Assembly: GCA_963971425.1 (NCBI GenBank)
Contig: OZ020519.1
Location: forward strand, 9,316,028-9,380,027
Source: Bryoerythrophyllum caledonicum
Lineage: Eukaryota; Streptophyta; Bryopsida; Pottiales; Pottiaceae
Direction: 5' to 3'
Length of the DNA stretch: 64,000 nucleotides
Under the pieces are notes generated by a model, which did not search any database, was not told where the DNA came from, and saw nothing but the letters and a program-made list of their open reading frames with translations. Within the stretch, counting starts at the first letter, position 1. Every line of letters begins with the position of its first letter. Both the position numbers and the translations under genes were made by a program. Below are positions 6,001 through 58,379 of this stretch, one piece after another.

Positions 6001-9000
6001 AGACCGGCGTTCTTCTTCTTCTTCTTTGTTATTTGAAGAATCTGCAATCCAAAGGTCTAAGTCTTACTGAACTTCAATATATTTTTGTATTCTACAAAAG
6101 TATAATACATGTTGAAGGATAGGGATGATGTGGCGGAATAAGGACCGATACTACGTTCCACCAAAACCACCCCAATAGTGTCTCTCTAAGATTAGACGCC
6201 GCAAGACTAATTGAAACAACTTTTTACTATTTTCAACCGTAGGATCTTCAAATTTGCTACTACTAGGACACACTCACCTACAATTCCTAATTTTTAACCA
6301 CAAGGATTGTATGATACATGCATTTGAAGAGTGCAATATGGTTTATTTCTTCCTTGCTTGGACATGGCAAAATTACTTTGACTCAAGATAATGGCCTAAT
6401 TTTTTACTACACAATGTATAATTTTTCATGATTCTATGTTCTTCCTTGTGTTGGTTCATTACACGCCAAAATAACAAGTAATGGAGATGTTTAGGATAAG
6501 GGAAATAAACTTGCAATGACTAGGAGATAGAAAGTAGCCATTTACAAAAGTTTATTTTTCTAAAGAGAGAATCATTTGTTGGATCTAAAATCCAAATGAT
6601 GGATAGAATTATTATGCCTTAATCTCATAATTAAAAAAAATTGAAGGAAAGTAAAATCGTCAATTTTTATGCATTTTAAAGTAAAAACAATGAGGGTTTC
6701 CAAGAACTATTATTCATTGCTACGTGCCTCAAAAAAGTGCAATAGTCAACTCTATAGTACTACCATTTATCTCTATATTATCTTGCCCAGCTGCCCCAAA
6801 ATCAAGCTTTTGATGTTCGAAGCACCATATTTTTTATGTTCCCTATAAATCCAAAAATAATGATTATTATAATATATTTAGTTATATTTATATCCACAAA
6901 TATAATCACTAAAATTACTACACTCACTAAAATTTTCACAGAATAATCTTCAAAATTAGATTTTTAGGAAACCTGCCCAGATTGATTTGCACCCCGCAAA
7001 TACTAATTGTCTTCTAGGAATTAATGATTTTTAAGTGCATGTGTAGCTTTCACAAAGAAGAAGAAGAAGAAGAAGAAGAAGAACCCCAATTTGTAGTAGA
7101 GGTCAGCATAAATAGAATGTTTGTTCATTCCACCACTAAATTAATGCCGACCAGATAAAGAATTAGTGATATGGAACTACTTCCCCTTTTCAAGGGTAGA
7201 TACAATAAAACATTCTTAAACATTTCTACAAACAAAGAGGAAAATAACCCTTAAACGTCAAAAGGTGCCAATGGTGGCTACAATATTCTACATGTATGGT
7301 AACGTATACAAACATGATAAGGTTCAAGATTGATTGAAATGACCTCCAAACAAATGATGTTATTTGAAGTGTCTATCCTCGAGAGAGGGAAGTAGTTCCA
7401 GCTTGCTAATTCCTTGCCTTGTGGGCATGGTCTTAGTAGTGGAACGGACAGACACTTTATTCACACCGGCCTCCTTCGGAGACCGGCGTTCTTCTTCTTC
7501 TTCTTTGTTATTTGAAGAATCTGCAATCCAAAGGTCTAAGTCTTACTGAACTTCAATATATTTTTGTATTCTACAAAAGTATAATACATGTTGAAGGATA
7601 GGGATGATGTGGCGGAATAAGGACCGATACTACGTTCCACCAAAACCACCCCAATAGTGTCTCTCTAAGATTAGACGCCGCAAGACTAATTGAAACAACT
7701 TTTTACTATTTTCAACCGTAGGATCTTCAAATTTGCTACTACTAGGACACACTCACCTACAATTCCTAATTTTTAACCACAAGGATTGTATGATACATGC
7801 ATTTGAAGAGTGCAATATGGTTTATTTCTTCCTTGCTTGGACATGGCAAAATTACTTTGACTCAAGATAATGGCCTAATTTTTTACTACACAATGTATAA
7901 TTTTTCATGATTCTATGTTCTTCCTTGTGTTGGTTCATTACACGCCAAAATAACAAGTAATGGAGATGTTTAGGATAAGGGAAATAAACTTGCAATGACT
8001 AGGAGATAGAAAGTAGCCATTTACAAAAGTTTATTTTTCTAAAGAGAGAATCATTTGTTGGATCTAAAATCCAAATGATGGATAGAATTATTATGCCTTA
8101 ATCTCATAATTAAAAAAAATTGAAGGAAAGTAAAATCGTCAATTTTTATGCATTTTAAAGTAAAAACAATGAGGGTTTCCAAGAACTATTATTCATTGCT
8201 ACGTGCCTCAAAAAAGTGCAATAGTCAACTCTATAGTACTACCATTTATCTCTATATTATCTTGCCCAGCTGCCCCAAAATCAAGCTTTTGATGTTCGAA
8301 GCACCATATTTTTTATGTTCCCTATAAATCCAAAAATAATGATTATTATAATATATTTAGTTATATTTATATCCACAAATATAATCACTAAAATTACTAC
8401 ACTCACTAAAATTTTCACAGAATAATCTTCAAAATTAGATTTTTAGGAAACCTGCCCAGATTGATTTGCACCCCGCAAATACTAATTGTCTTCTAGGAAT
8501 TAATGATTTTTAAGTGCATGTGTAGCTTTCACAAAGAAGAAGAAGAAGAAGAAGAAGAAGAACCCCAATTTGTAGTAGAGGTCAGCATAAATAGAATGTT
8601 TGTTCATTCCACCACTAAATTAATGCCGACCAGATAAAGAATTAGTGATATGGAACTACTTCCCCTTTTCAAGGGTAGATACAATAAAACATTCTTAAAC
8701 ATTTCTACAAACAAAGAGGAAAATAACCCTTAAACGTCAAAAGGTGCCAATGGTGGCTACAATATTCTACATGTATGGTAACGTATACAAACATGATAAG
8801 GTTCAAGATTGATTGAAATGACCTCCAAACAAATGATGTTATTTGAAGTGTCTATCCTCGAGAGAGGGAAGTAGTTCCAGCTTGCTAATTCCTTGCCTTG
8901 TGGGCATGGTCTTAGTAGTGGAACGGACAGACACTTTATTCACACCGGCCTCCTTCGGAGACCGGCGTTCTTCTTCTTCTTCTTTGTTATTTGAAGAATC

Positions 9001-9069
9001 TGCAATCCAAAGGTCTAAGTCTTACTGAACTTCAATATATTTTTGTATTCTACAAAAGTATAATACATG
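1..9069. repeat. Tandem array of a 1479-bp unit (six full copies plus a partial copy)
   Basis: The sequence at base 1 recurs at 1480, 2959, 4438, 5917, 7396 and 8875, always 1479 bp apart. The last copy stops at 9069, 195 bp into the unit. The array runs off the left edge, so its true size is unknown. Copies look almost identical. One difference I saw is at unit base 1080: A in copies 3 and 4 (4038, 5517) and G in copies 1, 2, 5 and 6. Each unit is AT-rich, has a (GAA)n run, a GC-rich hairpin and a pair of inverted arms. A 61-codon ORF recurs in every unit but is low-complexity and unlike any protein I know. This is a macrosatellite or recently amplified segmental repeat. Such perfect arrays can also be changed in copy number by assembly. 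Confidence 0.97.
1129..1610. repeat. Inverted arms and GAA microsatellite within each 1479-bp unit
   Basis: Shown for the first unit boundary; the same structure recurs every 1479 bp. A (GAA)n run of about nine repeats starts near 1138. The stretch 1138-1290 (key motifs GTTTGTTCATTCCACCACTA and GGAACTACTTCCCC) reappears inverted at about 1447-1600, imperfectly, including the TTC run near 1573-1588. Between the arms are roughly 160 bp of unrelated sequence. A short GC-rich stem, CCGG-CTCC with loop TTC and GGAG-CCGG, lies at 1549-1572. Single diverged arm copies occur at 30946-31060, 42365-42465 and 46862-46976, so the arm is a dispersed transposon end, not private to the array. Confidence 0.75.
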
Positions 9070-27600: not shown

Positions 27601-29904
27601 AAAATCTAGATCATAGGAATCGGCCTGAAATAGAAAAAGCCCCTCACGGGGCAAATGGCCCTTTAGGGATTAAGGCTACCAAAATTGGTTGTGGTTTTTA
27701 GGAATCTTAAATTGGCTGTATTCTTCTTGAGCTATCTATGGCTGTCCTCTAAACTGGGTATACCTCTTTCAATTCAAGGAGCTGTATATCATCTTTATTC
27801 ATACTTTTACCATGAGATAGTCATTGGCACAAATGTGCATGTAGCTTCATACTTATTCACGGGAATATGCTAAATTATTTGAGTACTATTCCTGCAGGGT
27901 GGTCATGGAACTCAGGGAGACCTTGAAGTCTAAGAGTGAAGAAGGAGACGCGTATATTACTGAAATAGAGGTTCGTTTGCATCAGTATCCTTGACTTTCT
28001 TGTTCCCCTGCACGTATATTTTGAGGATGCTCACATCTTAAGTCGTATGATTGGTTGAGGAGCTGATTTGCATATAATTCAAATGGTTTAGAAGCTCACC
28101 TCCGTGGGTTTTTTGATTGGCAGACTATTGGGCAGGCGTATGAAGAGATGCAAACACAAAATTCAAGGCTAATTCAACAGATTACTGAACGTGATGATTA
28201 CAATACTCAGGTAACTTGCGGTAGCCATTCTTCATTTTAAGTTTTTGAACGGGCTTTGAACTTTTTAAAATACTTAAATTTTTAGCTAGATGTTGAAATG
28301 TTTGATTTAAGATGTGATTTACGTCTGTTGAAGAGTCCAAACATGGAGTGTATCTGATGCGGGGTGTGGCAGATTGTTCTATACAGATCTATCTTGTGAA
28401 ATTTGAAATCTTGTGAAAATGGCTCTGAGTTGAGAATTATGTTTGTGAACAATATCATTGCTCATATTTTTATTCTTTATGACCTTCAGCTGGTGGCGGA
28501 AAGCTTGAAAGCTAAACAACTGCAAGCTTCCCTTCTGGCAGAGAAGCAAGTTCTTGCTAGCCGTGTGCAACATTCTAATGCTACTGCTGACCATCACAAG
28601 CAGCGTGTCAGCCGATTAGAAGATCAGGTACGATATCTCATGGTGTATGTTACAGTCATATCTTGTGCCGGTTCCGTCTTGGGGAAGTGGATTTTTGAAT
28701 CACAAGTGGATTGTTGTGCTAGCAGATACTACTGGTCTGTTTGCTATGCATCCCTAGTTATCATAGAATCTCATTATTGTTGCGTCTAAAGAACTTCTAG
28801 AATACGTGTCAGTCATATAATGTACTCTTGTTAATATCTTGCGAGAAAAACACTATCAACGTTGGCTCTGAACCATAATGGCCACAATGTGATGACCAGC
28901 ACGCTGTTATGTCATGACTGGGATATCATCGTGCAGGCTAGGTCATACATAGAGCAAACAGGCAAGATTATGGACGATGGCAGGCAACATGCATTATCCT
29001 TGGAGACTTTGAAACGGAAGACAGTTGAAACCGAGAGGGAGCTTCTCTCTACGAAGACAGCACTAGAAGCTGCAAATAGAAGGATTGAAGATCGTGGTCA
29101 CGAACTTGCTGAGGCTCAACAGCGGCTTGACAAAGAAAGGTATGGTCAATACTTCATACTTATCTATCTTTCAATGTATCGGTGGTATCTTCACTTTGTT
29201 ACCAAGAGCGTGGTTATTCAGTAACATCATTTGTCGGATTTTATTCACGGAGATCAAGAAATGCAACATACATGCTTGTTTGTGGGTATATTATTAAGAG
29301 GTCTTTTGCCGTTGTCGAGGTCCCTGTGGAATAAATTTTAGAGTTGTCGGACAGTCAAATTGATTCTATTGGAATCTGTGTGGTGATCGCATTGTGGTTC
29401 AGTCCGCCATCCTGTTGTCATTACTTGTTCCCTTCTGAGCAGTAAGGTTTTTTGTGGCGTAGATTTGAGAAACGCAGGGTTCAGGATGAGCTGGAGGCAC
29501 TTAACAGTAAGTTGACTCGGCTACGATCTCATCAAGAAGGGGGTCCTGGAATAGAACGGCTTCAGGAGGAGATAAAGGAGTATAAGGCTATTCTGAAGTG
29601 CAGCGTCTGCCATGATCGTCCCAAAGAAGTAAGAATGCCTTTCCTATGGACGGGGGATGACTTTTTTGTTTACTGTGTGCCAAAATTATATTTCAAGTCT
29701 TCATGGAACTCATTCTTTGAGCTTGTTAGACTTGTTGATAAGCTAACCTGAGATTAAAAATCATGGTTGCAGGTGGTCATCACAAAGTGTTTTCATTTGT
29801 TTTGCGGCCCATGTATCCAGAGGAACTTGGAGCTCAGGCATCGAAAATGTCCCGGTTGTGGGATTCCATTTGGCCAGAGCGATGTGCGAAACGTCTACAT
29901 TTAG
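21632..29904 (+). CDS. HUB1: E3 ubiquitin ligase HUB1 (Bre1-type, histone H2B monoubiquitination), 19 exons
   Basis: The joined exons give 887 residues, close to Arabidopsis HUB1 (878 as I recall). HUB proteins act in the nucleus with an E2 to monoubiquitinate histone H2B, affecting transcription elongation. The N-terminus MGSTEEPDRKRRHL and internal phrases such as RLLEKGATESS and LILDMYEREST resemble HUB1 more than HUB2. Residues from about 40 to 830 are predicted coiled coil (Glu/Lys/Leu-rich heptads). The C-terminal RING is C3HC4: C835, C838, C850, H852, C855, C858, C870, C873, with spacing C-x2-C-x11-C-x-H-x2-C-x2-C-x11-C-x2-C. It ends DVRNVYI. All exon joins keep frame with GT-AG introns. 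The start is the first in-frame ATG. The gene appears intact. Confidence 0.95.
21632..29904 (+). other. HUB1: HUB1 exon map
   Basis: Coding exons, read from splice sites and frame: 1) 21632-21742; 2) 22469-22630; 3) 22944-23031; 4) 23350-23576; 5) 23863-24049; 6) 24501-24709; 7) 25076-25159; 8) 25357-25476; 9) 25608-25794; 10) 25953-26113; 11) 26336-26407; 12) 26586-26662; 13) 26833-27027; 14) 27898-27970; 15) 28124-28210; 16) 28490-28627; 17) 28937-29139; 18) 29478-29628; 19) 29773-29904 (stop TAG). Total 2664 nt. The weakest join is the start of exon 5: the acceptor CTAG at 23861-23862 is needed because an upstream candidate CAG leads into an in-frame TAG. Introns run from about 110 to 870 bp; intron 13 is the longest because of an inserted element. 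The RING is split between exons 18 and 19. Confidence 0.88.
27243..27673 (-). mobile_element. TTAA-flanked MITE copy inside HUB1 intron 13 (431 bp)
   Basis: Begins TTAA then TACCTAAAGGTCC and ends GGCCCTTTAGGGA then TTAA, matching the ends of the family seen at six other sites. It is shorter than the roughly 932-bp members and shares its left interior (ACACCAAAAACACTTCAA) with the 280-bp copy at 51957. It lies wholly within the intron and leaves both splice sites intact. No coding capacity. Confidence 0.75.
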
Positions 29905-30352: not shown

Positions 30353-30937
30353 TAATTTGATAAGGAAGTACACTAAAATTTATGTTTAGTGTAGTGGTAC
30401 AAATAGTGTACTTACCGTAGTACACTATTTGTAAAGAAGTTGACAATTGGTGTCAGTTGCCAATGTCATTAATGTAACCCTCCCTCAAATCCCAATAAAA
30501 CCCCAATCATTCCAGCCCATGCTTCTTCTCATTTGCAACTTTCAAATGGCCATATGTCATTCAAATTTGTCTGAATTGGGCATATGAGATGTTTTTTGGC
30601 ATCTAAATTTTCTGTAGATGCCAAAAAACACCTCATATGCCTAATTAGGACAAAAATTGAGTGAGTTATGGCGATTTGAAAGTTGCTGATGAGATACTAT
30701 GATAGCCCTCGACTTCTGGACCTTTTTCTTCACTTGTACTATTGATACACTAATTGTGCACAAGTGAAAGAAATAATTTTATTATTTTTACCAAAATTGA
30801 CAAATAGTGTAGTAGTTGGCATTTAGTGTACGGTTATGTCACTACACTAAATGCCTCATTTGCAATTGGTGTATGGGTTCACATTTAGTGTATACTACAC
30901 TAACCATAAATTTTAGTGTAGTTGTATCCTAATTTTT
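30353..30937. mobile_element. Palindromic foldback MITE
   Basis: The two ends are inverted copies: TACACTAAAATTTATG near 30370 and CATAAATTTTAGTGTAG near 30906. Further inward, blocks pair again: GCAACTTTCAAATGGCCAT near 30535 with ATGGCGATTTGAAAGTTGC near 30669. The centre is a near-perfect hairpin with arms about 30584-30612 and 30618-30648 (GATGTTTTTTGGCATCTA and its complement). The whole element can fold on itself. The TTTAGTGTAG motif recurs in subterminal repeats. No ORF. A related but distinct palindrome is at 36044-36266. Confidence 0.8.
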
Positions 30938-31218: not shown

Positions 31219-31502
31219 TTTAACCCCGAAAGGACCACGACCACTTTTGCTTTAAAACCAGTCCAAAACTGCCACTGCCAAAAAGAGACATGAAAATCAC
31301 ATTTTAAAGTGAATTTTGGATTTTCAACCATAAGATCTTAAAATAGACTACTACATAAACATGCCATGAAATTTTGGTAGCAATCCACTACAGGGATTGA
31401 TAGATTTTAGTGTTTAAAGTCAAAACAATGGTTCATTTTCTTCCCTGCGTTGAGTAGATCAACAGACTTTGACTTCACTTTGTATCAAATTTTTGCATTG
31501 TA

Positions 31503-32449
31503 TAGTAGGGTAACATTCAAATTGGCGTTTGGGCAATTCCAGGGATGGTGTCCCACACTGCTGCCAACTTTGACGCCCTCCACAGGGCTGAAAAATTGTT
31601 CTTTTATCCTGAAATTTTGGGAACAGCATCACCTCTATGTTAAAAACATGCATACCAAATTTCAAGTCCAGAGGACTTATAAAACAAAAGATATTAAAAA
31701 TTAACCACCATGGGGTAGCTGTGAGAAAAGTTTCTCAACTGCCAACTTTGACACCATCCCAAGGATTGAGGAAATTTTTTTTGCCCATGGAATTTTTGGA
31801 GTGAGAACACCTTTATGTTGATTACATGTATGGAAATTTTCAAGTCCAAAAAATGCACAAAAAAAATCACATCCCAAATCTACCAACATGTGTAATTGTG
31901 AGAAAAAAAGGGAAAAACCATTTTACTACTTCCAACTTTGACACCCTCCCTAGGATTGAGGGTTTGTTATTTCAACATGAAATTTTTGACACATGGTAAA
32001 CTTTATGTTGATAACATGTGGGAAAATTTTCAAGGCCAAAAAATGTATTCAAAAAAAGATATTCAAAATCTACTAACATGGGGGTTAGTTGTGAGAAAAG
32101 TTTCACAGCTGCCCACTTTGACACCCTCCCAAGAATTCAAAAAAATTTATTTGTCCATGAAATTTTGGGTATGAAGTCACCTTCACGTCAAATACAAGTG
32201 TGGAAAATTTCAAAATCCAAAAGATTTACACAAAAAAACATATACCAAGTCTACCAACATGTATTGTTGTGACAAACAAAGGGGAAAGTTTACCACTACT
32301 TCCAACTTCAACACCCTTCCTAGGATTGAGTTTTTGTTGATACATAATGAAATTTTGGCCACAAGATCATCTCTTTATTGGTAACATATGAGATAGATTT
32401 CAAAGCCAAAAGATGTATATACAAAAAAAATTTATTCCATATCTACCAA
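31503..32449 (+). repeat. Left 947-bp TIR made of five ~185-bp modules
   Basis: The motif AACTTTGACACCCTCCC, with variants, recurs at 31566, 31744, 31934, 32114 and 32304, spacings of 178, 190, 180 and 190 bp. Each is followed by similar text: AGGATTGAG, ATGAAATTTT, a GTTGATAACATG-type stretch, TTTTCAA-CCAAAA, and ATCTACCAACATG. The inner edge ends in the last ATCTACCAA; the transposase stop codon lies inside it. Short open frames inside the modules are not genes. Confidence 0.9.
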
Positions 32450-33480
32450 CGTGTATGTCCTCCATTAGCATCAATCACCGCCTGTAACCTTGAGGGCATA
32501 GAATGACATAGTTGAAGGAGCTTTGTACCACTAACCAAATTCCACTCTTTTTCAAGAACTACCTTCATCACTTCTAAGTTTCTAGGGCATTCTTTGCCAT
32601 GTTGCACAACATCTTTTAGCATCCTCCAGACATTCTCGATTGGATTGAGATCGGGAGAGTTTGCAGGCCAATTGAGCTTTTCGAGTTGGTGGGTTTCTCT
32701 CCATTCTTCACATGTTTTGCTACGATGAACAGGTGCACCATCTTCCATTAGCACTTCTTTTGGAAGTCTACTCAAGAAATAAATCAATTCGCCATCGTAG
32801 ACCACTTCAACAAAATCTTTAGCAGAACGTTGAGTTTTTGGCATAAAGACAAGTTGTGACTTTTGTCCTCCAGCAAATGCACCCCAAATCATCAAAGATG
32901 TCCATCCACTTTTAAAAGTAGGAACTATACAACTTGATGAATAACGCTCATATGCACTTCTCCAAACATGAATTTGCCGAGAACTTTTTCCAATCTCAAA
33001 AGTAGATTCATCTGTCCAAACAATACGCTCCCACTCTTTTGGACTCCATCCATGGTACTTTTGAGCAAAAGCTAACCGTTGAGACATGTGATGGGATGTC
33101 AAGAAAGGTTTTTTGACTGCAATTCGACTAAAAATACCACTTTTATGTAATACCCTTTTAATAGTACGTCTACACACTTGAGTACGGCACATATTAGTAA
33201 TCTCTGAGACCGAGGAACGACGATGAGTTTTTGCATAACGCACAATATTATTCACATCTCTCTCACTAAGTTTTTTAGCGTGACTTCCACCGCAAGGTTT
33301 GCGCTTATAAGTTCCATCTTCTTTAAACGTTTTTACTAACCTCTGAACTATTCTAACAGAAACTCCAGTAATGGCTGTAATTTGAACTCTTGTATTTCCT
33401 CCCTCACTCAAACCTATAATGCGAGCACGGATTTCATCTGAAATTGCCATTATAGACAATTTTTTATGATGTTGATACAA
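32443..33480 (-). CDS. Tc1-type DD34E transposase
   Basis: 345 residues in one exon, a normal Tc1 length. It cuts the element at its TIRs and inserts it at TA. Residues about 10-60 form a first helix-turn-helix (paired-like: ISDEIRARIIGLSEGG, then ITGVSVRIVQRLV), and about 70-125 a second. The DDE catalytic residues are D157 (WTDES), D247 (MEDGAPVH) and E282 (SPDLNPIENVW), with 34 residues between the last two: DD34E, the Tc1 type, unlike the DD39D of typical plant mariner elements. An internal methionine at residue 11 (MAISDEIRAR) is the more likely true start. No stops or missing catalytic residues. The last residues (GGHTRW) and the stop reach into the left TIR. Horizontal entry from animals or fungi is possible. 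Confidence 0.93.
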   Translation of the reverse strand: MYQHHKKLSIMAISDEIRARIIGLSEGGNTRVQITAITGVSVRIVQRLVKTFKEDGTYKRKPCGGSHAKKLSERDVNNIVRYAKTHRRSSVSEITNMCRTQVCRRTIKRVLHKSGIFSRIAVKKPFLTSHHMSQRLAFAQKYHGWSPKEWERIVWTDESTFEIGKSSRQIHVWRSAYERYSSSCIVPTFKSGWTSLMIWGAFAGGQKSQLVFMPKTQRSAKDFVEVVYDGELIYFLSRLPKEVLMEDGAPVHRSKTCEEWRETHQLEKLNWPANSPDLNPIENVWRMLKDVVQHGKECPRNLEVMKVVLEKEWNLVSGTKLLQLCHSMPSRLQAVIDANGGHTRW

Positions 33481-34234
33481 TACTAAATGTTCTTCAATAA
33501 GTAATCAATATAACACTCAACCTATGGCAATTGGATTATATAATTCAGTAAACACAAAGGACTCAGCTTATGGCATGTGCACTAAATAAATCAATCAACA
33601 ACATAACACTCACATTGGCATGTGCATTAGGTGATAACCATAGCATGTGCATTAGATGATAACCATGGCATGTGCATCAATTGAGTGAACCAAAAAATAC
33701 TCTTGGACATACTCATGCCACATGTGATTCGTCAACACTCAGTAAACTAGTCAACAACACTCAAAAAAAATAAAAAATATCCACTCAATAAATCAGCCCA
33801 TATGTGATATGCCCACTCAATGGATCAGCCCATATGTGATTTGTCTACTCAATCAGTCAACAACACTCAGCCCATATCTAATATGTCCACTCAATACCAT
33901 CTCAACATTCACTCTCAATACCATCTCAACATTCACTCTATTACAAATCACATGACAAAATACACACAACATTTCCTTTACATAGTGCTCAACAGATATT
34001 TGGAGGAGAAAACTCGTCATACGTGCATAATGCACACCAAACCTTATGACAAGTGGGTTCTTCTACACAAAACAACTCTGCAATTCTACATGTAGATTTC
34101 ATTGATCTTTTCAAGATGCATTTATGTTTGGTAGCTCAGTCACATGAATAAAATCAATGAAGAGTACGAGGTGTCAAAGATAATTTGACATTCTCAATAT
34201 GCCCCTTCAATATAGTTTCTCATTGTTACAAACA
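33481..34234. other. Internal spacer of the Tc1 element
   Basis: AT-rich, non-coding. It contains short irregular repeats: GGCATGTGCAT around 33570-33680, and CCCATATGTGAT with CCACTCAAT around 33780-33930. Possibly the transposase promoter region, since the gene starts at its left edge. Confidence 0.55.
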
Positions 34235-35181
34235 TTGGTAGATATGGAATAAATTTTTTTTGTATATACATCTTTTGGCTTTGAAATCTATCTCATATGT
34301 TACCAATAAAGAGATGATCTTGTGGCCAAAATTTCATTATGTATCAACAAAAACTCAATCCTAGGAAGGGTGTTGAAGTTGGAAGTAGTGGTAAACTTTC
34401 CCCTTTGTTTGTCACAACAATACATGTTGGTAGACTTGGTATATGTTTTTTTGTGTAAATCTTTTGGATTTTGAAATTTTCCACACTTGTATTTGACGTG
34501 AAGGTGACTTCATACCCAAAATTTCATGGACAAATAAATTTTTTTGAATTCTTGGGAGGGTGTCAAAGTGGGCAGCTGTGAAACTTTTCTCACAACTAAC
34601 CCCCATGTTAGTAGATTTTGAATATCTTTTTTTGAATACATTTTTTGGCCTTGAAAATTTTCCCACATGTTATCAACATAAAGGTTACCATGTGTCAAAA
34701 ATTTCATGTTGAAATAACAAACCCTCAATCCTAGGGAGGGTGTCAAAGTTGGAAGTAGTAAAATGGTTTTTCCCTTTTTTTCTCACAATTACACATGTTG
34801 GTAGATTTGGGATGTGATTTTTTTTGTGCATTTTTTGGACTTGAAAATTTCCACACATGTAATCAACATAAAGGTGTTCTCACTCCAAAAATTCCATGGG
34901 CAAAAAAAATTTCCTCAATCCTTGGGATGGTGTCAAAGTTGGCGGTTGAGAAACTTTTCTCACAGCTACCCCATGGTGGTTAATTTTTAATATCTTTTGC
35001 TTTATAAGTCCTCTGGACTTGAAATTTGGTATGCATGTTTTTAACATAGAGGTGATGCTGTTCCCAAAATTTCAGGATAAAAGAACAATTTTTCAGCCCT
35101 GTGGAGGGCGTCAAAGTTGGCAGCAGTGTGGGACACCATCCCTGGAATTGCCCAAACGCCAATTTGAATGTCACCCTATTG
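34235..35181 (-). repeat. Right 947-bp TIR of the Tc1 element
   Basis: Reverse complement of 31503-32449, with only a handful of differences seen by eye (the outermost bases, one in a CTCAACCGCC segment near 34944, and one near 34687). It carries the same five modules in mirror order. Confidence 0.93.
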
Positions 35182-35833
35182 TACAAGGTCTAAATCTTTT
35201 ACCATTGTCTTAAGCATGATGTTATTTCCTAGTACACCAATTTTTAGAGGTAAAAAAGGGGTGTAGCATATTCAAAACAAGTGTGCAAGGAGTGGAGGTT
35301 CAAAAATTGCCATTTCAGGTTTTATTTTTTTGTGAACTACGTATGTATTCGAATGATAATCCAAACGGTCAATAAGAAGGTTTTCACCACATATTGTTGT
35401 TGAAAAAATAAAAAGTGAAAAATATGAAGACCTCTAGGTTTTATGTAAAAAAGATGAAGTTTTTTTCCCCGTTGCCCGACAATGTGTGAAAATGTTTGAC
35501 TTGGAATAAAATGGCTTTTTACACTAAAGACAAGATTTTTTTTTGGAAAATTTCCAAAAAAGGAAATATTCTTTATATGTGTGAAAAATCTCAATGTCAA
35601 TAGAAACCTTTGTCAAAAAATTTGGAGGTGCCCGGTGTCCTCACTTTTGGCTTTAAGTGGTACTAACTTTCAAACTACAAATCCAAAAAATCAAATAAAA
35701 ATATGTCCACGAAGCTCTTATGAGAGGCAATCTAGAATAAAAATTTCAGAGAAAAAGGATTTTTTTTCGAATTTTAGGAACCTACCCAAAATCAGAAATC
35801 CCCCGAAGGAGACTTTGGTTCTTTAGGGGTTAA

Positions 35834-36800: not shown

Positions 36801-37386
36801 ATTTGGAGTAGCCACGGTGTCAATATTGGGGAAAGAGTTCGAGGGTGATGATAGAGCTGAGAAATCAGCTGCAGTTGCTAGTGAGAGAAGTGTACAACCT
36901 AATATTCATAGTAAAAGGATTTAGACTAGAACCACCTGTTAATGTGAGAAGGGAAGTGATGAGATATATCTACACCCTAGATCAGGTACTAGTTAAAGAT
37001 GTGACATGATGGTATAGGTCTGAGACCTATAAGATCCCTATTGGCAATAAATGGATTGTGGCGAAAGGTTTAGTAAGTAAATATGTCTGCTGGAGATGAG
37101 AAGGAACATAAGTTGTAACAATTGAGCCATCGTTGTATTTCTCTCGAATATAGTAATGTTCTAACTCTATATGTTTAGTTCTCTGATGCATTACAGGGGT
37201 ACGGACAAGTTTGATGCTGCTAATGTTGTCACAAAAGGTAGGGGTGGAAGAAGGGCTACTAATTTTTAGCTCATCCAGAAGACGTCGAAAGTAGGTGATA
37301 TTGCGAGCTACTTTTGAAAGAACACAATATTGAACCTCAATTGAAGATAAAACAAGGGTGGATTGTAGTTTACTCTTCCAAGCAAT

Positions 37387-38277
37387 TCAAGAAGAGCCTA
37401 ATTTATATAAAATGCTAGAGGTTGATCTTTGTGAATCTGACTCCCCTGCCCAGTCCACATCTATAAAGACTAATAATCCTCCAGTATCATTGGCTGGGTA
37501 AAAAATGCCATAGTTAAGTGTCCCTTTTAGATAGCAGAGAACGTTCTTTGCAGCAATCACGTGTACTTGTTGAGGATTGCTCATATAGCGAGAGACACAA
37601 TTGACTACATATTGTATATCCCAAGGGTGCGGAAAGGGGGTTGTAGTCTTGCATTTCAAACCGCTCAAGTAGGCGTTCAATATAGCTTCGTTGGTGAAAG
37701 TAAACTCCATCATCTATGTAGAGTAGTTCAATACCAATATATAGTTGTGCATCTTTAAGATGTGTCATTTTGAACCATCTTGTCAACTATGCGTTAAGAT
37801 TGGCAATATTTTCATGCTCATCTCTTGTTAGGATAATATCATCGACATATAGGAGAAGTAAGGTGTATTTCCCATCACAAATAGAGAAATAAAGGTTAGG
37901 TTCTTCTTTACTCTTTGTAAGTCCTTGTTGAAGATAGGCATTAATTTCACCATACCAGGCTTGGGGGCTTGTTGGAGGCCATATAGTGCTCGTTGGAGTT
38001 TGCACACCTTGCCGCTATTTTCAAATCCGGGGGGAATGGTCATGTAGACTTCTTCGTCAATTTTTCCATTCAGAGAGGCAGTCTAGACATCAAGGTGATG
38101 TATTTTCCATTTTTGTTGTGCGGCAAGTGCAACTACGCTACAAATAGTGGACCAAGAATTCATGGAGGCAAAGGTTTCAAAGAAATCGATGCCCTCTTCT
38201 TGTTCAAATCCTCGAGCCACAAGCCTAGCCTTTAGTTTTTCAACTTTGCCGCTAGGTCGAGGTTTGGTTTTAAACAT
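37387..38277 (-). pseudogene. Copia reverse transcriptase / RNase H remnants
   Basis: Successive broken frames carry copia RT hallmarks: LVARGFEQEEGIDFFETFA, HHLDV followed by a stop, [18 protein letters not shown] followed by a frameshift, YVDDIILT (the catalytic YVDD box, kept), and IERLLERFEMQD. RNase H text at the end includes DVDWAGESDSQRSTS. Several stops and frame changes separate the pieces. Confidence 0.92.
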
Positions 38278-38478
38278 CCACTTTGCAGATATTGGACATT
38301 TGCCACGAGAGAGGTCTACTAATTTCCATGTGTCATTTTCCTCGATTGAATCAACCTCTTGTTGGATAGCGTCTTTCCAGCCGGAGTGTTTGATGGCTTC
38401 GGTGTAGTTGCAAGGTTCAATAAATGTCTCCGTTTCTACATAGAAGAAATAACTATCTTTGAACCTCGTACTCGTACG

Positions 38479-39429
38479 TCATTTACGAAGTGGATATCTT
38501 TGTTGTTGATCAAGGGGAGCTGCCTGAAGAGGTGACGGTGGGGCCTCTTCAATGATTGATGAATCTTGCATAGGTGGATGATCTGTAGAGTCACATGAGG
38601 TTGAGTATAAGGATGATGAGGATTTAGGAAATAGTTCAATATCTTCACGAGGATTGACCTTTGATGGAATAGCATTAAGTCCTATTTGAATCTCATCAAA
38701 TACAACATCTCTGCTACGATGGATGCGTTCGGTTTGAGGATCAAAGAGTCTGTAACCTTTACTTTGACTGTCGTAGCCTAAGAGAATGCACGGAAAGGTT
38801 TTGCTATCAAATTTGGATCTTCTAGTGTCTAGGACGTGAACATATGCTAGAGATCCAAATACTCTAAGATGTTTGACAGATGGCTTGAGATTGTAGTCTT
38901 TTTCATCAAGAGTCATACCACAATTGGCTCGAGTAGGACAAATATTGATTAGGTAGTTGGCTGTGTTTACGGCCTCTGTCCATAGATATCCAGGAAGTTT
39001 TCTAGCTGCAGACATGGTTCGTGCTTTTTCAATGATGGTTCTATTTCTACATTCACTAACTCCAAATTGTTCAAGGGTGAGTGCCATGGTAAGTTGGTAA
39101 TGGATGCCATGGTGTACTAGGTAGGATTCAAATTCATGTGATAGGTATTCCCCCCCTCTGTCGGTTCTAAGTGTCATAATATCTTTGTCAGTTTCTTTTT
39201 CAACTCTTGCTTTGAACTCTATGAATTTCCTAAAGGACTCACTTTTAGTCCTCATGAAGTAAATGAAGTTCTTCCTTGAGTACTCATCTGTAAAGACTAT
39301 AAAGTAGTGTGAACCGTTAAGTGACGGGATGCAAATAGGACCTACAAGATATGAGTGAATGAGTTGTAGTACCTGAGTTGTGCAATTGATAGATTCCTTT
39401 GAAAAATGCTCCCTATGTTTTCGTGCCAA
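38479..39429 (-). pseudogene. Copia integrase remnant
   Basis: A 316-codon open piece with the integrase core: SLNGSHYFIVFTDEYSRKNF, TDRGGEY (second Asp) and a VSECRNRTI segment with the catalytic Glu. The first catalytic Asp, normally in an HSDLxGP motif, is replaced: HSYLVGP is seen. It continues into the LGYDSQSKGYRLFDP region typical of the copia integrase C-terminus. Upstream Zn-binding residues are partly beyond a frame break. Confidence 0.92.
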
Positions 39430-39644
39430 ACAGTCGCCACAAATACTCCTAACAGTAGGAAAGATAGGGAGCCCATGTACTTACTTGGCATTGGCGCAAT
39501 GCTGGAGACTAGCATAATTCAAATGACCAAACTGTTTATGCCATAAGTGCATATTTGATCATGAGACAACCGAGTTCGCCATAGTTGTATCTTGAATGTT
39601 GGTGAATTAGTAAAGACCATTTGATAAATTGCGATGTTCTCTTG

Positions 39645-40205
39645 CTAAAATAGATTTGTTTTCATTAAGTACAAGACAATCATTGCCTCTAAAAATGATG
39701 ACCTTGATGAGCTAAGGAGCCTACGGATAATAGATTCTTCTTTAAGGCCATACAAAACGTTATCGTTATTTATTCCATTAGAACTACGAGTGTTGACATT
39801 GGCGGATCCAATTGCTCCTACATGGTGGGCATTGCCATCAACAGTTGTCACATTGTGCCCAGAGAAGCTAGCTCGTATGTTGTGTAGGTTTGCATATGAT
39901 CCAGTTACATGATGACTTGCCCCAGAGTCCATATACCATGTGGCATTTTGGTATTCCATGAGATTAGCTTTTGCGGAGTTCCACTCACTATCCATATAAG
40001 TATCTTCCTCAACATAGTTTGCGGCGGCATAATAACCATAAGGGCAGTTCTTTGCTATAAGACCTTGCTCTCTACAATTATAATAGATTAGTCCTCCCCC
40101 ATGACCACCTGTTGGTCGTGCATACATCTGCTGCCCGTATGGCTTCATGGCCATATTGAGTTGGCCTTCCGTATGAGGTTGATTGTAGCATGGTACCCAG
40201 GTCAT
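39645..40205 (-). pseudogene. Copia gag C-terminus (zinc knuckle) and protease remnant
   Basis: A CCHC-like knuckle is present as YYNCREQGLIAKNC: the first Cys is Tyr and the His is Leu, so it should not bind zinc. The protease active site WYMDSGASHHVTG is intact. Frame breaks lie on both sides. Confidence 0.9.
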
Positions 40206-40526
40206 GACCTTTGGGTACTGGCTCGGTCGTGGTACTCCCTATGGGGGCCCATACATGCCCGACTGCGGAGGGTTGTATCCATCTAGATGCGGAGGGTTGT
40301 ACTCGTCCGATCGCGGCTGCAGCTATTGCGGGCCCGTGGTTCTGCCTAAACCACCTGAACCTAAGCCGTCGGGTCACCACACCCACTACCCTCCGCTGCC
40401 GCCATATCTTGGACTATTGTTGTTGTGACCACCCTGGTGTTCTTCCTCGTCCTTCGCGAGTTTTGTGAAGTGGACAGCAAGTGCTTCATCATGTCCTCTC
40501 TTCTGTTATCTTAGGCTCTTACGGTG

Positions 40527-41117
40527 TCATTCAAAAAGCAATTTATCCATCACAATCTCAAATTTTGAATCAGTAAGATACGTAATATCTTGTATTATCA
40601 TCTCATAGATGTGAGGAAGCCCGTGGAGCACAAGGTTGATGAGGGTCTTGTCTTCCATCTCTTCTCCATAGCCTTTGAGTAGGTCACCTAGGTTCATTGT
40701 TGTGGTCAAGTAGTTGTTGATGTCTTGTCCTTCTCTCATCGATATTGTGTGCAGCCTGTTGGTGTTCATCTGGATCTGTTGTTGATCTCGTGCAGAGAAC
40801 ATGGACTTGAGCACACTCCAGGCATGAGCGGGGTCTTCATGTTGGTTGACTGTTTTGAGTAAGTTGTCTCCTACAGACATAGTTAGGCCTATCAATGCAC
40901 ATTGCTTTGCCTCCATCAGCTTCGCTTGAGTGTAGGCTACATTTGAGACAACCACTGGATATATAGATGTGACTACCTTAGTTCCTACTAGCGGCCATAA
41001 TCCTTCTCTCTTCATTATTGCAGTCATCTTGATCCGCCAATTGCTATAGTTGAGAGGCCCAACTAGTTTGTTGGGCTCTCCTACTTCACAATTCCAACTC
41101 TTGCTACTCTCTCCCAT
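40527..41117 (-). pseudogene. Copia gag, N-terminal part
   Basis: 196 codons starting MGESSKSWN. It has the copia gag layout: NYSNWRIKMTAIMKREGLWP near the start, then an AHAWSVLKSMFSARDQQQIQ segment and LINLVLHGLPHIYE. Its frame closes before the knuckle region, so the polyprotein is not continuous. Confidence 0.88.
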
Positions 41118-41235
41118 ACCTCTAGATCTATGTCTTCTAGATCTCTAACTTAGATCTAGATCTCTACCTCTCATATCAAATCTCAACCTTCTTAACCTAT
41201 CTCACTCTACAAGGAGCACGGCTCACTTGTCATAC

Positions 41236-47344: not shown

Positions 47345-47487
47345 TAAGTGCCTTGGAGACAACCGACATGTCATCCCCCCCTAGGGCTATTTGGGTACCC
47401 ATACAACGAGGTCTTAAGACCCACAACATAGTTGGGTGGACTATATACCATACTAGTGTGGGGACTTGAATTCACAACTACATCGTA

Positions 47488-48405
47488 TTAACCCCTAGAA
47501 GCCTAAGGCATTTTACCCCTCAAGGAACACTCCAAAACTGCCATTGTCAAAAGGTGGCAAGAAAATCTAATTTCGAAGTGAAATTTTGGACTTTTGATCG
47601 TAAGGTCTTGAAATAGACTTCTCTATGAACTTAGTGTGTTATTTTGGCTGTGCAATCCAGGGCACGGATACGAAGATTACAACGTTTGAATTCAAGAAAA
47701 TTGTTCATTTTCTTCCATGCGTTGAATGAATCAACAGAGGTTGACTACACTTGGTGTCAAATTTTTACACTACACAAGGTTTAAATCCTTTGCCATTGTA
47801 TTAAGCACGATGTTAGTCCTTCCTTATACACCAATTTTTAGAGGTAGAGAACAGGTGTAGCATATTCAAAAACAAGTGTGCAAGGAGTGGAGGTTCAAAG
47901 ATTGCCAATTCACGCTTTTCTTTCTGGTGAACTTGATATGTTCAAAAATGATAATCCAAGCGGTCAATAACAAAGGTTTTTACCACACATTGTTGTCAAA
48001 CAAAATAACAAGTGAAAAATATAAAGATCTCTAGGTTCTATGTAAAAAAGAATAAATTTTTTGGTACCTTGCCTAACAATGTGTGAAAATGTTTGACTTG
48101 GGTTAAAATGTTTTCCTACACTAAAGACAAGATTTTATTTGACATCTTCAAAGAAGGCAATTCTCTGTATGTATGAGAAAGCTCCATGTCAATAGAAACT
48201 TCTAGCACAAAATGTGGAGCTGCTTGAAGTCCCCAATTTGATTCTGAAGGCTAGTAACTTTCATACTATTAATCCAATTTTATTTATTTTTACATCCTCA
48301 AAGCTCTTATGAAGGACAAAACAAAAAAAGATTTTTCTTCAAATTTTAGGAACCACCCAGGATGGAAAACGTCCCCGCAGGATTAAATGGGCCTTCAGGG
48401 GTTAA
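47488..48405 (-). mobile_element. TTAA-flanked MITE copy (918 bp)
   Basis: TTAACCCCTAGAAGCC at the left and GGGCCTTCAGGGGTTAA at the right. It is collinear throughout with the copy interrupted by Tc1 (31220-35833), in the same orientation, with substitutions and small gaps. Confidence 0.85.
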
Positions 48406-48479
48406 CTTATACAAAATTGAATGATGGAACTCATACAGTTCAATGACCAGCAGCATCCGGGCCCTTTAAGAACTGTAAA

Positions 48480-53331: not shown

Positions 53332-55860
53332 CTAAAATCGTAATGTGCTCAAGCCAGGGCCTCGGTGTGCACAGAGGGGTTCCGTCAAGGGAGACAAGTC
53401 ACCGGTGGGGAGTCCGGCCTTCTTCCGACGTCGACGTTCGACAATGATCCTCATGTTGTGCTTGCACACGAGTGCACAGAGAGCCCGAAGCTGCAGCTGC
53501 TGGATTGACTCCTGGTAAGGAGCAGAATGCCTGATCTGGTCGTGGAGGCGTTGCCTTGCGGTAGCACATGCGGTGGGAGTCCAGAGGGCGTCAAAGGCCT
53601 TCTTTGCTTCCCGCTCGTCCCGGCGCCTGCTCTTCTGAGCTTCAGCCTGCAATCTTTCTTCCTTGCGACGCCGCTTGGAGCTGTCGACTTCGGCACGCCT
53701 CCTCTCACGCTCTTCGGTTGCTGCAGCCTTCTTGGCGGATTTATCTGCCATCAGATTCAAGTACTCGTCCGTTGTGAGAATTATGCTCTTGGAGTAGTCC
53801 ACGTATGGTTGATCGCTACGGTCTCGTGGAGCGGATCGCACATGCTCCGGGAGCGAGAGAAAGCTCATGATGCTGGGGGGGCCAGAGGTCATGTGCGGTG
53901 TGGATGTCATGGACGGGTCCAACTCTACGGAGTTGCCCTCCTCGTCGGGAATTTCGGCCACGAAGTACTGCCTAGGCTGCACTCTGTCGGGCTGCGTCTC
54001 TGGGATGACATTGTCATCTGTGACTTCTAGAACAACCAAACCTGCGAGCTCGAGCCGAAGCTGCTCCACCCCGGGCGACACCAGGGGATCCTCTTCATCG
54101 GCCTGTCGGAAGCATTCGCTAGGTGCCATCTTGTGCGCCATCTTGCTGTCATCCAAGGGCCAAATGCCACGAGTCTCGAAACCCTTCTTGATATTCTTCT
54201 CGGTCATGGCCTTGCGGAGGGACAAGGAGACCCATTGCGCTAGTACTTCCTTCATTGTGGGTTGACCTTTGTGGCTCAATGACCACACATCCCTGAACAT
54301 GCGAAACGCAGTCTTGAAAGGCTTGAATATCGATACGTCAAGCGGTTGAAGAGCTTGCGACGTGTGGGAGGGTAGGGTGATCATGTCAAGTCCCACATCT
54401 CTTGCCTGTTTCACTGCATCTAGAGTCACCTGGTTGTTATGCCCGTCAAGAATAAGCAAATGCCAGCAATGGAAAGAAATACCTCCATGCTGATCCATTG
54501 CTTGAATGAAATGAGATAGCCATTTCGCAAATAAAATACCCGTCATCCACGCACGCGGCTGCATGGCCATGGTCGCACCCACCTCGCATTTCTCTATGAA
54601 ATTTCTGCGAAATCTTTTACCTTTGAAAATATAAAAATTCGGAATCACTCCACTCGCCGCATTCATGCATGCAAGCATGCTCAGCCATTCACATTGATCA
54701 GGCATGACGGTGTGCACACTCTTGGAACTTGTCTTGGCCAAAACTAACCCCCCGCCATTGCGACGAGCTTGCGCACCCGATTCATCGCAATTCCACACTT
54801 GATGGGGTCCATAGTTGTGAGTCTCATAGAACCTTGATAAGTTAGAGTAAAACGAAGCCACGCTCTTCGAACACAAGCCCCGTACACACCGTGCTTCCAA
54901 TCCTTGCAAATGTCGCAATGCCAACTCTGGATGCCGACGCTTGAACCATTTTACCCACCCTTGTCCGGGGATCCCACTAGTGAATGGAGCAGGGCGGAAT
55001 TGAGTGATCTCTACAACCTTCAGACGACATTGAGTGATGGTAACATGATGACCAATATCCTGCATCTTCAGGATCCATGCAACCAGCAAGGACTCCTCAG
55101 CAACAGACAGCACTCCATGCCTTCCACGGTGCCGCCCTATAGTCCGCCCCATCAAGTGATCCCGCAAACTTGAGGCTGGTATGCCGTGGACACGTGAAGC
55201 CTCCCGGATGGGCACCCCGTCATCGATCGCAGCAATCGCGTCCTCTAACGATTTTGCACTCCAGTTTCCATTTTTTCTCCTCCGCTGCGATGTCGATTCG
55301 GCACCTGTCTGCGCAGATACGGAAGTGGGCTGCGACGGGCGGAGTGGCTCCGGAGGTGCGGGAGCCGGCTGCGAAGGACGGAGTGGCGGCTGATCGCTGG
55401 GAGAAGTCTGCGAAGGGAGGAACGTCTGTTGAACTTCTGGACCGACCTGCATTGATCCGCACATGATCTGGATTCCACCAGCACCGCTGGACCCAACACC
55501 TCCATTCGGCATCCCAAACAAGCGATGAGCAGCGCCGACGCCACGCCTCGTCATCTTGACGTTGCGGTCCTGAGGTGATCTTTGACCTCGACTTCCAATT
55601 TGGTGATGCTGCCGACTTGGCATAGGGCACCTGACGCCTCCTTGCATGCCCACCATGCCACGCCCATGGACGTGTGATCCTCCGCTAGGAAGTGACAATC
55701 CGAAGCTAAGCTGATCCTCCTGGATGCACTCGGTCTCACTGTCGCTGAGCACGACGTCCTCCTCCATCTGCTGGCCACCGAACTCCTTGCATGTCTCCTC
55801 GTCCAATTCATCGGAGCCATCTTCCTCGACGTGATTACCATCCTTCTCAGTAAACTCCAT
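53332..55860 (-). CDS. Pogo-like DDE transposase (DD35D), 842 residues
   Basis: A single long open frame, GC-rich compared with its surroundings. An acidic N-terminus (1-50) is followed by a low-complexity Gly/Pro/Ser/Gln region. A Psq-type helix-turn-helix lies at about 198-240 (LEDAIAAIDDGVPIREASRV) and a CENP-B/Tc5-type DNA-binding domain at about 250-325 (GWVKWFKRRHPELALR). The DDE_1 domain has D359 (WNCDESG), D472 (LLILDGHNNQ) and D508 (LQPLDVSIFKPFK), 35 residues between the last two. A basic, charged coiled-coil-like region rich in Lys, Arg and Glu (about 705-780) follows. All catalytic residues are present, so this is more likely a transposase than a tamed host protein. An in-frame TAG lies 21 bp before the ATG, so the start is firm unless a leader intron exists. 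Confidence 0.9.
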   Translation of the reverse strand: MEFTEKDGNHVEEDGSDELDEETCKEFGGQQMEEDVVLSDSETECIQEDQLSFGLSLPSGGSHVHGRGMVGMQGGVRCPMPSRQHHQIGSRGQRSPQDRNVKMTRRGVGAAHRLFGMPNGGVGSSGAGGIQIMCGSMQVGPEVQQTFLPSQTSPSDQPPLRPSQPAPAPPEPLRPSQPTSVSAQTGAESTSQRRRKNGNWSAKSLEDAIAAIDDGVPIREASRVHGIPASSLRDHLMGRTIGRHRGRHGVLSVAEESLLVAWILKMQDIGHHVTITQCRLKVVEITQFRPAPFTSGIPGQGWVKWFKRRHPELALRHLQGLEARCVRGLCSKSVASFYSNLSRFYETHNYGPHQVWNCDESGAQARRNGGGLVLAKTSSKSVHTVMPDQCEWLSMLACMNAASGVIPNFYIFKGKRFRRNFIEKCEVGATMAMQPRAWMTGILFAKWLSHFIQAMDQHGGISFHCWHLLILDGHNNQVTLDAVKQARDVGLDMITLPSHTSQALQPLDVSIFKPFKTAFRMFRDVWSLSHKGQPTMKEVLAQWVSLSLRKAMTEKNIKKGFETRGIWPLDDSKMAHKMAPSECFRQADEEDPLVSPGVEQLRLELAGLVVLEVTDDNVIPETQPDRVQPRQYFVAEIPDEEGNSVELDPSMTSTPHMTSGPPSIMSFLSLPEHVRSAPRDRSDQPYVDYSKSIILTTDEYLNLMADKSAKKAAATEERERRRAEVDSSKRRRKEERLQAEAQKSRRRDEREAKKAFDALWTPTACATARQRLHDQIRHSAPYQESIQQLQLRALCALVCKHNMRIIVERRRRKKAGLPTGDLSPLTEPLCAHRGPGLSTLRF

Positions 55861-56161
55861 CCAAGACGCATCCGGCCTCTACATTTCCCCATTGCATGTA
55901 GGCTGCACACTCACTGATAGAAGGTGGTGGAACTCGAAAATTGCCAGATGATTTGTGTTGCATGAAGCAGCCCTTTTTGTACACTAAACCGCCTGGGTCC
56001 TCTACATTGTTGCTCGCCTGAAACGGTTTGTTCACTCCGAAGGCACCCATGTTCCACACGTTGCAGCAGTAATTGCACGCACCAGATTGGCAATTCCGCC
56101 CCAGATAGGAAGCTCCACCACATCTGCTGCACGAAATAGCCGCCACTGTCTGAACACACAA
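55847..56161 (-). CDS. Cys-rich upstream ORF overlapping the pogo transposase
   Basis: About 100 codons in another frame, with paired cysteines (CSRCGG, then CQSGACNYCC) and a conserved-looking middle (NMGAFGVNKPF). It ends GCVLDGVY, with its TGA 14 bp inside the transposase frame. There is no ATG at its left; it could start as an exon after a TTCAG acceptor near 56155. It may encode a small zinc-binding partner protein of the element, or an N-terminal exon joined by splicing. The function is unknown. Confidence 0.35.
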   Translation of the reverse strand: MCVQTVAAISCSRCGGASYLGRNCQSGACNYCCNVWNMGAFGVNKPFQASNNVEDPGGLVYKKGCFMQHKSSGNFRVPPPSISECAAYMQWGNVEAGCVLDGVY

Positions 56162-57292: not shown

Positions 57293-58224
57293 TTAACCCC
57301 TAGGAGCCCATTTGACCCTTGGGGGACGTTTTTCATTTTGGGCAGGTATCTTAATTTTGAAAAAAAAAATCTTTTTCTTTTGAAATGTTTAGTCTGGATT
57401 GTCCCTCATAAGATCTTTCTGGAACAATTTGTTTAATATTTTTCGATTCATAATACGAAAGTTATTAGCCTTCAAAGTCAAATTAGGGACTCCAAGGAGC
57501 TCCAAAAGTTTTGCTAGAAGCTTCTATTGTCATTGAGAGTTTTCATAAATATAGAGTATATTACCTCCTTTGAAAATGTTAAAAAAAAAATCTTGCCTTT
57601 AGTGTAAAAAAACATTTTTACCCAAATCAAACATTTTCACACATTGTTGGGCAAGGTACCAAGAATAGTTCTTCTTTGCTACTTAAAAGCTAGAGATCTT
57701 CCTAGTTTTCACTTGTTATTTTTTTGACAACAATGTGTGGTGAAAAACTTCTTATTGGCCGTATGGATTGTCATTCTTAAACATATTAAGTTCACTAAAA
57801 GAAAAGCGGGAATCGGCAATCTTTGAACCTCCACTCCTTGCACACGTGTTTTGAATATGCTACACCCCTTCTCTACCTCTAAAAATTGGTGTAAAAGGAA
57901 CTAACATCATTCTTAACACAATGGTAAAGGATTTAGACCTTGTGTAGTGCAAAAATATGACACCAAGTGAAGTCAAAGTCTACGGATTTACTCAACGCAA
58001 GGAAGATAACGAACCAATTTCTTGACTTTGAACGCTATAATCTTCATATCCGTGCGGTGGATTGTAGCCAAAAAAAAAATGGTGTATTTATATAGAAGTA
58101 TTTTTAAGACCTTATGGTTAAAGCCCAAAATTGTACTTCAAAATCAGATATTATTGCTAGTGGTTGATAGTGACAGTTTTGGAGTGTTTCTTGAAGGAAT
58201 ATGCCTTGGCTTTGTGGGGATTAA
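57293..58224 (+). mobile_element. TTAA-flanked MITE copy (932 bp)
   Basis: Left end TTAACCCCTAGGAGCC. The right end is decayed, reading GTGGGGATTAA. The interior is collinear with 62838-63770 in the same direction, including ACATTGTTGGGCAA and CACCAATTTTTAGAGG-type landmarks. Confidence 0.8.
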
Positions 58225-58379
58225 AACTGCAAGGTTTACAAGCCTTTGGTATTTAATAGGTGTAGGTATAAAGGAACATGGTGAGGTTTTGGCCCTTGGG
58301 AGAAGGAAGTGGTCCGAGCTCCATATTCTGCAAGTGCAGTCTCCATAATCAATGCTCAAAAATTTAGGGTATGATTTAT

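Follow-up and report, generated by a model that had tools for sequence, protein, structure and literature searches.

A Tc1-like (DD34E) transposon family with long, modular inverted arms in the moss Bryoerythrophyllum caledonicum

What kind of transposon carries inverted repeats of nearly 1 kb that are themselves built from repeated modules, and what could such arms do for it? The question is raised by a 3679-bp element at 31503..35181 (gene on the minus strand), delimited by inverted-arm and TA-boundary analysis within a 64,000-nucleotide stretch of the moss Bryoerythrophyllum caledonicum (GenBank assembly GCA_963971425.1, contig OZ020519.1, positions 9,316,028 to 9,380,027 of the forward strand), hereafter the window. 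We consider it very probable that the element belongs to a Tc1-like (DD34E) cut-and-paste family that is large and has spread recently; its modular arms would serve to load transposase and would be maintained by gene conversion.

Results

The transposase and the class of the element

The transposase gene, identified as an open reading frame with domain matches, runs from ATG to stop at 32443..33450 (minus strand) and encodes 335 amino acids with a catalytic triad of D147, D237, and E272, the last two separated by 34 residues. A first-pass annotation of this DNA had given the triad as D157, D247, and E282; the spacing stands, but the numbering counts from an upstream TTG and has to be corrected for the ATG start. 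Pfam matches to DDE_3 (2.8e-16), HTH_Tnp_Tc3_2 (4.3e-16), and HTH_23 (4e-8), together with PDB matches to Sleeping Beauty (E 1.7e-29) and Tc3, bear out the annotation of a full-length DD34E transposase. The protein has the paired-type bipartite helix-turn-helix region and the DDE_3 catalytic domain by which Tc1 transposases are recognized; a structure predicted from the single sequence had a mean predicted local distance difference test score of 33.9. Judged by catalytic spacing, Pfam domains, and PDB matches, the element is of the Tc1 DD34E type and not DD39D. A plant DD39D mariner, the alternative that the annotation itself had raised, was ruled out, as the third catalytic residue is E272 after 34 residues rather than an aspartate after 39. 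Membership in the P superfamily, to which Galileo belongs, was likewise ruled out, as the Pfam matches include no THAP domain and only TA is duplicated. No relatives of the transposase were found among viral contigs, phages, and genome contigs, sets that hold few or no plant records.

Structure of the element and its insertion site

The two terminal inverted repeats (TIRs, here also called arms) are of equal length, as annotated: the left TIR (31503..32449, plus strand), which is the 3' arm relative to the gene, and the right TIR (34235..35181, minus strand), the 5' arm, are each 947 bp long, comprise five modules, and pair without gaps, differing at seven positions. Three of the seven differences lie within the outermost 10 bp (positions 1, 3, and 10; P ~4e-5 under an even spread). 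The inner edge of the left arm contains the last codon (Trp) and the stop of the transposase gene, and a leader with short tandem repeats in units of 24 to 32 bp (33451..34234, minus strand) separates the gene from the right TIR. The terminal ~24 bp of the left arm (31503..31526, plus strand), nearly identical by eye in the two subfamilies A and B described below, are likely the main stretch for end recognition. The family tip is CAGTAGGGTG, and the window copy, with TAGTAGGGTA at its left tip and CAATAGGGTG at its right, deviates from it at three terminal bases. Because both tips are altered, this copy probably moves poorly, and the description "apparently intact" applies to its gene and arms but not to its tips.

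The TA duplications (31501..31502 and 35182..35183) were confirmed by an empty site in the same window. The element splits a ~950-bp repeat into a left half at 31220..31500 and a right half at 35184..35833 (both plus strand), of which four uninterrupted copies, 75.6 to 90% identical and without the Tc1 insert, lie at 47485-48408, 57293-58227, 60256-61021 (a shorter copy), and 62838-63770. The joined flanks align to all four (over 47528-48408, 57293-58199, 60260-61020, and 62838-63770) with no gap at the point of joining; the most similar paralogue (90%, 62838-63770) has the same single TA at the insertion point, and the other three have CA there. A second genomic locus (L048) has a copy of the ~950-bp repeat in which a family element, together with a sibling element, occupies the same insertion point. 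A single insertion copied by duplication was not supported as the origin of both: arm divergence between the window element and the one at L048 is 1.37%, inside the 1.01 to 2.33% seen for others. As the two are not especially similar, it seems that insertions struck this point repeatedly. Several copies of the ~950-bp repeat start with TTAACCCC and finish with GGGGTTAA, and by its sequence this family looks like a nonautonomous piggyBac-type element. At another place (L031, C12:8379500-8387500), a Tc1 element holds a 1.6-kb insert that includes a ~950-bp repeat, so that the order of nesting is opposite to that in the window. Because each is found nested in the other, the periods in which the two families were mobile may have overlapped.

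A large genomic family with a sibling subfamily

Genome-wide searches covered the host assembly of 437,360,962 bases in 894 contigs. All 120 transposase matches that were scored, out of 4414 candidates from the first look, span nearly the whole protein at 93 to 100% identity, and 73 of them show no in-frame stop by eye. The terminal 27-mer TACAGTAGGGTGACATTCAAATTGGCG has 279 exact copies, compared with 0 for the reversed control. Twenty copies, those ranked 2 to 21 in the scored list, were fetched, and every one has two modular arms, both full-length in 18; L038 lacks the outer 289 bp of one arm and L050 the outer 43 bp. A chance origin is excluded by the length of the arms, the 120 of 120 transposase matches, and the presence of such arms in all 20 copies fetched. 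The unusually long modular TIRs are upheld by these counts, and TA-bounded copies do occur genome-wide, contrary to the annotation's proviso that the TIRs might prove to lack them elsewhere. Of 65 distinct ends, 62 were usable (two truncated ends and one with an altered tip were dropped), and 51 of these have a terminal CAGT, whereas the window copy ends in TAGT and CAAT. Among roughly 100 of the 279 places, viewed by eye, no pair of the same exact tips lay less than 2 kb apart as a short derivative would, except at one end-to-end junction.

Whole-element divergence between copies averages 1.6% (20 elements, L031 left out), and the transposase frame is open in 17 of 21 copies, the window copy included. 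Adjoining four of the 20 fetched copies (L032, L035, L039, and L048) are elements of a sibling subfamily, B, whose protein is ~80% identical to that of the window's subfamily, A, and contains stop codons in the three cases translated. The arms of B, of which both from one element were seen in L048, are ~577 bp long and have counterparts of modules 1, 2, and 5 only, at identities of 0.83-0.84, 0.85-0.86, and 0.87-0.88, respectively, in the four arms compared. Loss of a 370-bp module pair in B seems likelier than a gain in A, because modules 2 and 4 (0.78) and modules 3 and 5 (0.75) of A differ more from each other than do the A-B counterparts.

The two arms of an element are matched to each other

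In the 19 elements that remain when two truncated ones are dropped, the arms diverge by 0.58% within an element, compared with 1.69% between elements (1.68% for 5'-5', 1.71% for 3'-3', and 1.69% for 5'-3' comparisons), and none of 5000 random arm pairings was as low as the within-element value. All 21 elements gave the same picture (0.60% within versus 1.68% between, with 1.66-1.71% across the three kinds of comparison). At no column does the majority base differ between the two arms, and among variants private to one element, 57 occur in both arms and 61 in one (19 elements). In 17 of 19 elements the two arms are each other's exclusive sisters; in the remaining two, L039 and L040, all four arms fall into one group. 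These comparisons indicate that the arms are homogenized within each element, and exchange between them after copying is needed, because independent mutation cannot make divergence within elements smaller than divergence between them. The terminal 10 bp hold 13 one-arm variants and no both-arm variants (Fisher P 1.6e-4), a pattern that fits conversion tracts needing homology on both sides.

The similarity of the TIRs had been taken as a sign of recent activity. This does not hold, because arms homogenized within an element cannot serve as an insertion clock; better evidence of recent spread comes from the ~1.6% by which copies diverge and from the many open reading frames.

Each arm is built from five phased modules

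Alignment of the ten modules confirmed the annotated five modules of ~185 bp per TIR with a common motif. The motif of module 1, CCAACTTTGACGCCCTCC, lies at 31564..31581 and is followed in the left arm by those of module 2 (31742..31759), module 3 (31932..31949), module 4 (32112..32129), and module 5 (32302..32319, differing from module 3 at 3 of 18 positions), all on the plus strand, so that the starts are spaced by 178, 190, 180, and 190 bp. The five motifs of the right arm mirror them on the minus strand (34365..35120, with positions 34365, 34555, 34735, 34925, and 35103). Even with up to four mismatches allowed, the 18-bp motif has no occurrence in the window other than those in the ten modules. 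The modules are mutually 62 to 78% identical, and their types alternate A-B-A-B-A, with modules 2 and 4 (0.78) and modules 3 and 5 (0.75) alike. When polymorphism was scanned with two truncated arms left out, only one of the 144 overlapping offsets was less polymorphic than that of the motif, which has 6 variable sites (median, 14.5). Subfamily B has the motif at the same positions, and the 178/190 module phase is base-exact in both subfamilies. Among the 19 elements in which both arms are full, all 38 arms measure 945 to 947 bp.

The family prefers TGTACA as its target

By script, a clean TA on both sides was present in 17 of 21 elements (two truncated elements, one with an altered TA, and one with a tip indel were dropped); of their joined sites, all 17 read GTAC and 15 read TGTACA. 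At the exact ends, G precedes TA in 271 of 279 cases, compared with 18.4% of the TAs in the window, and TG precedes it in 252 of 279, compared with 6.9%. The family has a strong target preference for TGTACA, beyond TA alone. As TGTA followed by the tip CAGT again spells TGTACA, the preferred target arises anew at the tips of every inserted element. In eleven cases two elements meet exactly end to end and have a single TA in common (22 palindromic hits); nine of these junctions join CAGT to CAAT tips, one CAGT to CAGT, and one CAAT to CAAT. One copy (L042, C11:22136000-22145000) sits at the center of a perfect ~24-bp palindrome, TTAGTTCCTTGTACAAGGAACTAA.

Surroundings in the window

A BRE1/HUB-like E3 ubiquitin ligase gene closes with a RING domain 1.6 kb upstream of the element (29446-29904, plus strand); its exons match BRE1B in PDB (E 9.5e-4), and coiled-coil-like open frames from 24416 on look by eye like earlier exons. 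Downstream of the RING gene, near a TAGTGTA-rich stretch, an imperfect palindrome (30527-30694, 82% self-complementary) is possibly another small inverted-repeat element. Positions 1-9069 hold a tandem array of ~6 copies of a 1479-bp unit that are at least 99.9% identical, with a G+C fraction of ~0.34; the unit has no Rfam match at gathering thresholds. A broken Ty1/Copia-type retrotransposon occupies about 37000-41144 (minus strand), with gag, Pol_BBD, and integrase in separate frames and reverse-transcriptase-like frames by eye. Both the ligase gene and these Copia-type fragments, which lie downstream of the element, are consistent with a land-plant host. At 53332-55878 (minus strand), an 848-aa open frame with DDE_1, HTH_Tnp_Tc5, and HTH_psq encodes a pogo-like transposase.

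Discussion

We propose that the paired-type N-terminal domain of the transposase would recognize the outer ~24 bp and, in a secondary role, the motif that recurs in phase from module to module. This motif is plausibly a transposase-binding site, a role that the first-pass annotation had suggested and that its low polymorphism supports indirectly. Several transposase molecules would load on each arm before synapsis, by analogy with Galileo and Bari. Gene conversion between the inverted arms would maintain their likeness in sequence, and probably in module number, and would miss the outermost bases. A wider proposal, which we put forward tentatively, is that of a Tc1 lineage with a foldback-like strategy, in which each arm carries five phased binding modules, conversion keeps the arms matched, TGTACA is re-created, and younger elements attach end to end to their older relatives.

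Several observations weigh against these interpretations. The outer 47 bp resemble the internal motif no more than expected by chance (P 0.11-0.35), so binding of both by one domain remains putative; module offsets around 124-129 are nearly as little polymorphic as the motif (7-8 variable sites); and in the A-B comparison, conservation of the motif does not, by eye, clearly exceed that of the remaining module sequence. The fetched copies are the best-ranked ones and were not drawn at random. Among the 17 open copies, the ratio of nonsynonymous to synonymous divergence (dN/dS) is 0.79, so recent copies drift almost freely, whereas the A-B comparison gives a lower ratio (dN about 0.10, dS about 0.27). 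The missing both-arm tip variants could also reflect selection against copies with altered tips, and assembly polishing could contribute part of the arm identity within elements.

How much of this could be explained otherwise? The modules might be passive, a satellite-like ~185/370-bp repeat that grew inside the arms, with the terminal ~24 bp alone of consequence. That the modules are only 62 to 78% alike, that subfamily B has three of them, that the outer end does not resemble the motif, and that other moss Tc1 elements are described with 33-bp TIRs (PMC4054914) all speak for this possibility; we regard it as doubtful, as the motif is among the least polymorphic offsets, the 178/190 phase is kept to the base in A and B, and no full arm among 38 departs from 945-947 bp. 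It is unlikely that the arms act instead on expression, either by folding back into double-stranded RNA that feeds silencing or as promoter or insulator repeats. The nucleosome repeat length is near the module spacing, and two ~99% identical 947-bp inverted arms would pair in a transcript spanning both, yet the family has nonetheless reached hundreds of ends.

Two further explanations concern the data and the class of the element. Long, near-identical inverted repeats are difficult to assemble, and one arm could have been copied onto the other during assembly or polishing, giving the appearance of homogenization. We think it quite improbable that this is the whole explanation, since 104 one-arm differences persist across the 19 elements, and the 13 one-arm and 0 both-arm variants at the tips are not obviously predicted by it. 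Finally, nearly every end reads TGTA-CAGT with GTAC on both sides (17 of 17 joined sites), as would be seen if the true duplication were GTAC or TGTACA and the element hence not a TA-duplicating Tc1. The probability of this is very small indeed: a copy on C6 inserted in AATATT (left ...ACAA-TA-CAGT, right ACTG-TA-TTTG) duplicated TA only, and L036 and L047 show A or G where a 6-bp duplication requires T, barring later mutation. On this evidence, duplications of 4 or 6 bp were rejected.

With TA duplication and modular, conversion-matched arms as the preferred reading, the family makes several questions testable: whether modules raise transposase loading, how inverted arms are kept identical, and whether a six-base preference leads to stacking. 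It has hundreds of ends and many open transposase genes, and its two natural arm lengths, of three and five modules in the same phase, offer a natural test of the role of the modules.

The first-pass annotation regarded a Tc1 element in a plant as unexpected, but Tc1-like elements were reported from moss and angiosperms in 2014 (PMC4054914), the moss ones being closer to fungal elements according to a later paper, with transfer proposed as their origin (PMC7466625). No plant Tc1 with such arms or with a TGTACA preference appeared in literature titles and abstract openings, which leave subscription journals mostly uncovered. The moss elements PpTc1 and PpTc2 share with ours the DD34E triad, two helix-turn-helix domains, TA duplication, terminal CAGT, a plant host, many similar copies, and a transposase of similar length (338 aa); they are set apart by their description as elements of 1.6-1.7 kb with 33-bp TIRs, for which the available part of the report describes no modules (PMC4054914). 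Plant DD39D mariners share the Tc1/mariner superfamily, the TA duplication, and the host kingdom but have D after 39 rather than E after 34 (PMC4054914, PMC7325037).

Sleeping Beauty is a Tc1 element with direct repeats in its arms. Bari has a Tc1 transposase and repeated transposase-binding sites in its arms, and the TIR of Bari2 reaches 253 bp, but its sites are three short direct repeats per arm, unlike the five ~185-bp modules of our 947-bp arms (PMC8834629). Tc1 TIRs are usually ~30 bp and in some cases several hundred; the ciliate Tec elements, also DD34E, have TIRs of ~700 bp but differ in carrying three open reading frames and a recombinase, and modular arms go unmentioned in the available part of that source (PMC7325037). 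Galileo and Tetris resemble the window element in the architecture of their arms, with long TIRs containing tandem repeats of ~210-220 bp (PMC3573991, PMC3688188, PMC4079207). The Galileo repeats hold extra transposase sites, the first ~70 bp from the end, compared with position 62 for our first motif (PMC3573991, PMC3688188); these sites have been mapped, but transposition could not be reconstituted in that account (PMC3688188). Both are Drosophila elements, Galileo of the P superfamily with a THAP domain and Tetris an apparently nonautonomous foldback element (PMC3573991, PMC3688188, PMC4079207), and the likeness of their arms to those of the window element is likely convergent. Long, internally repeated arms are thus known from P-type and foldback elements of flies and are found here in a plant Tc1 family.

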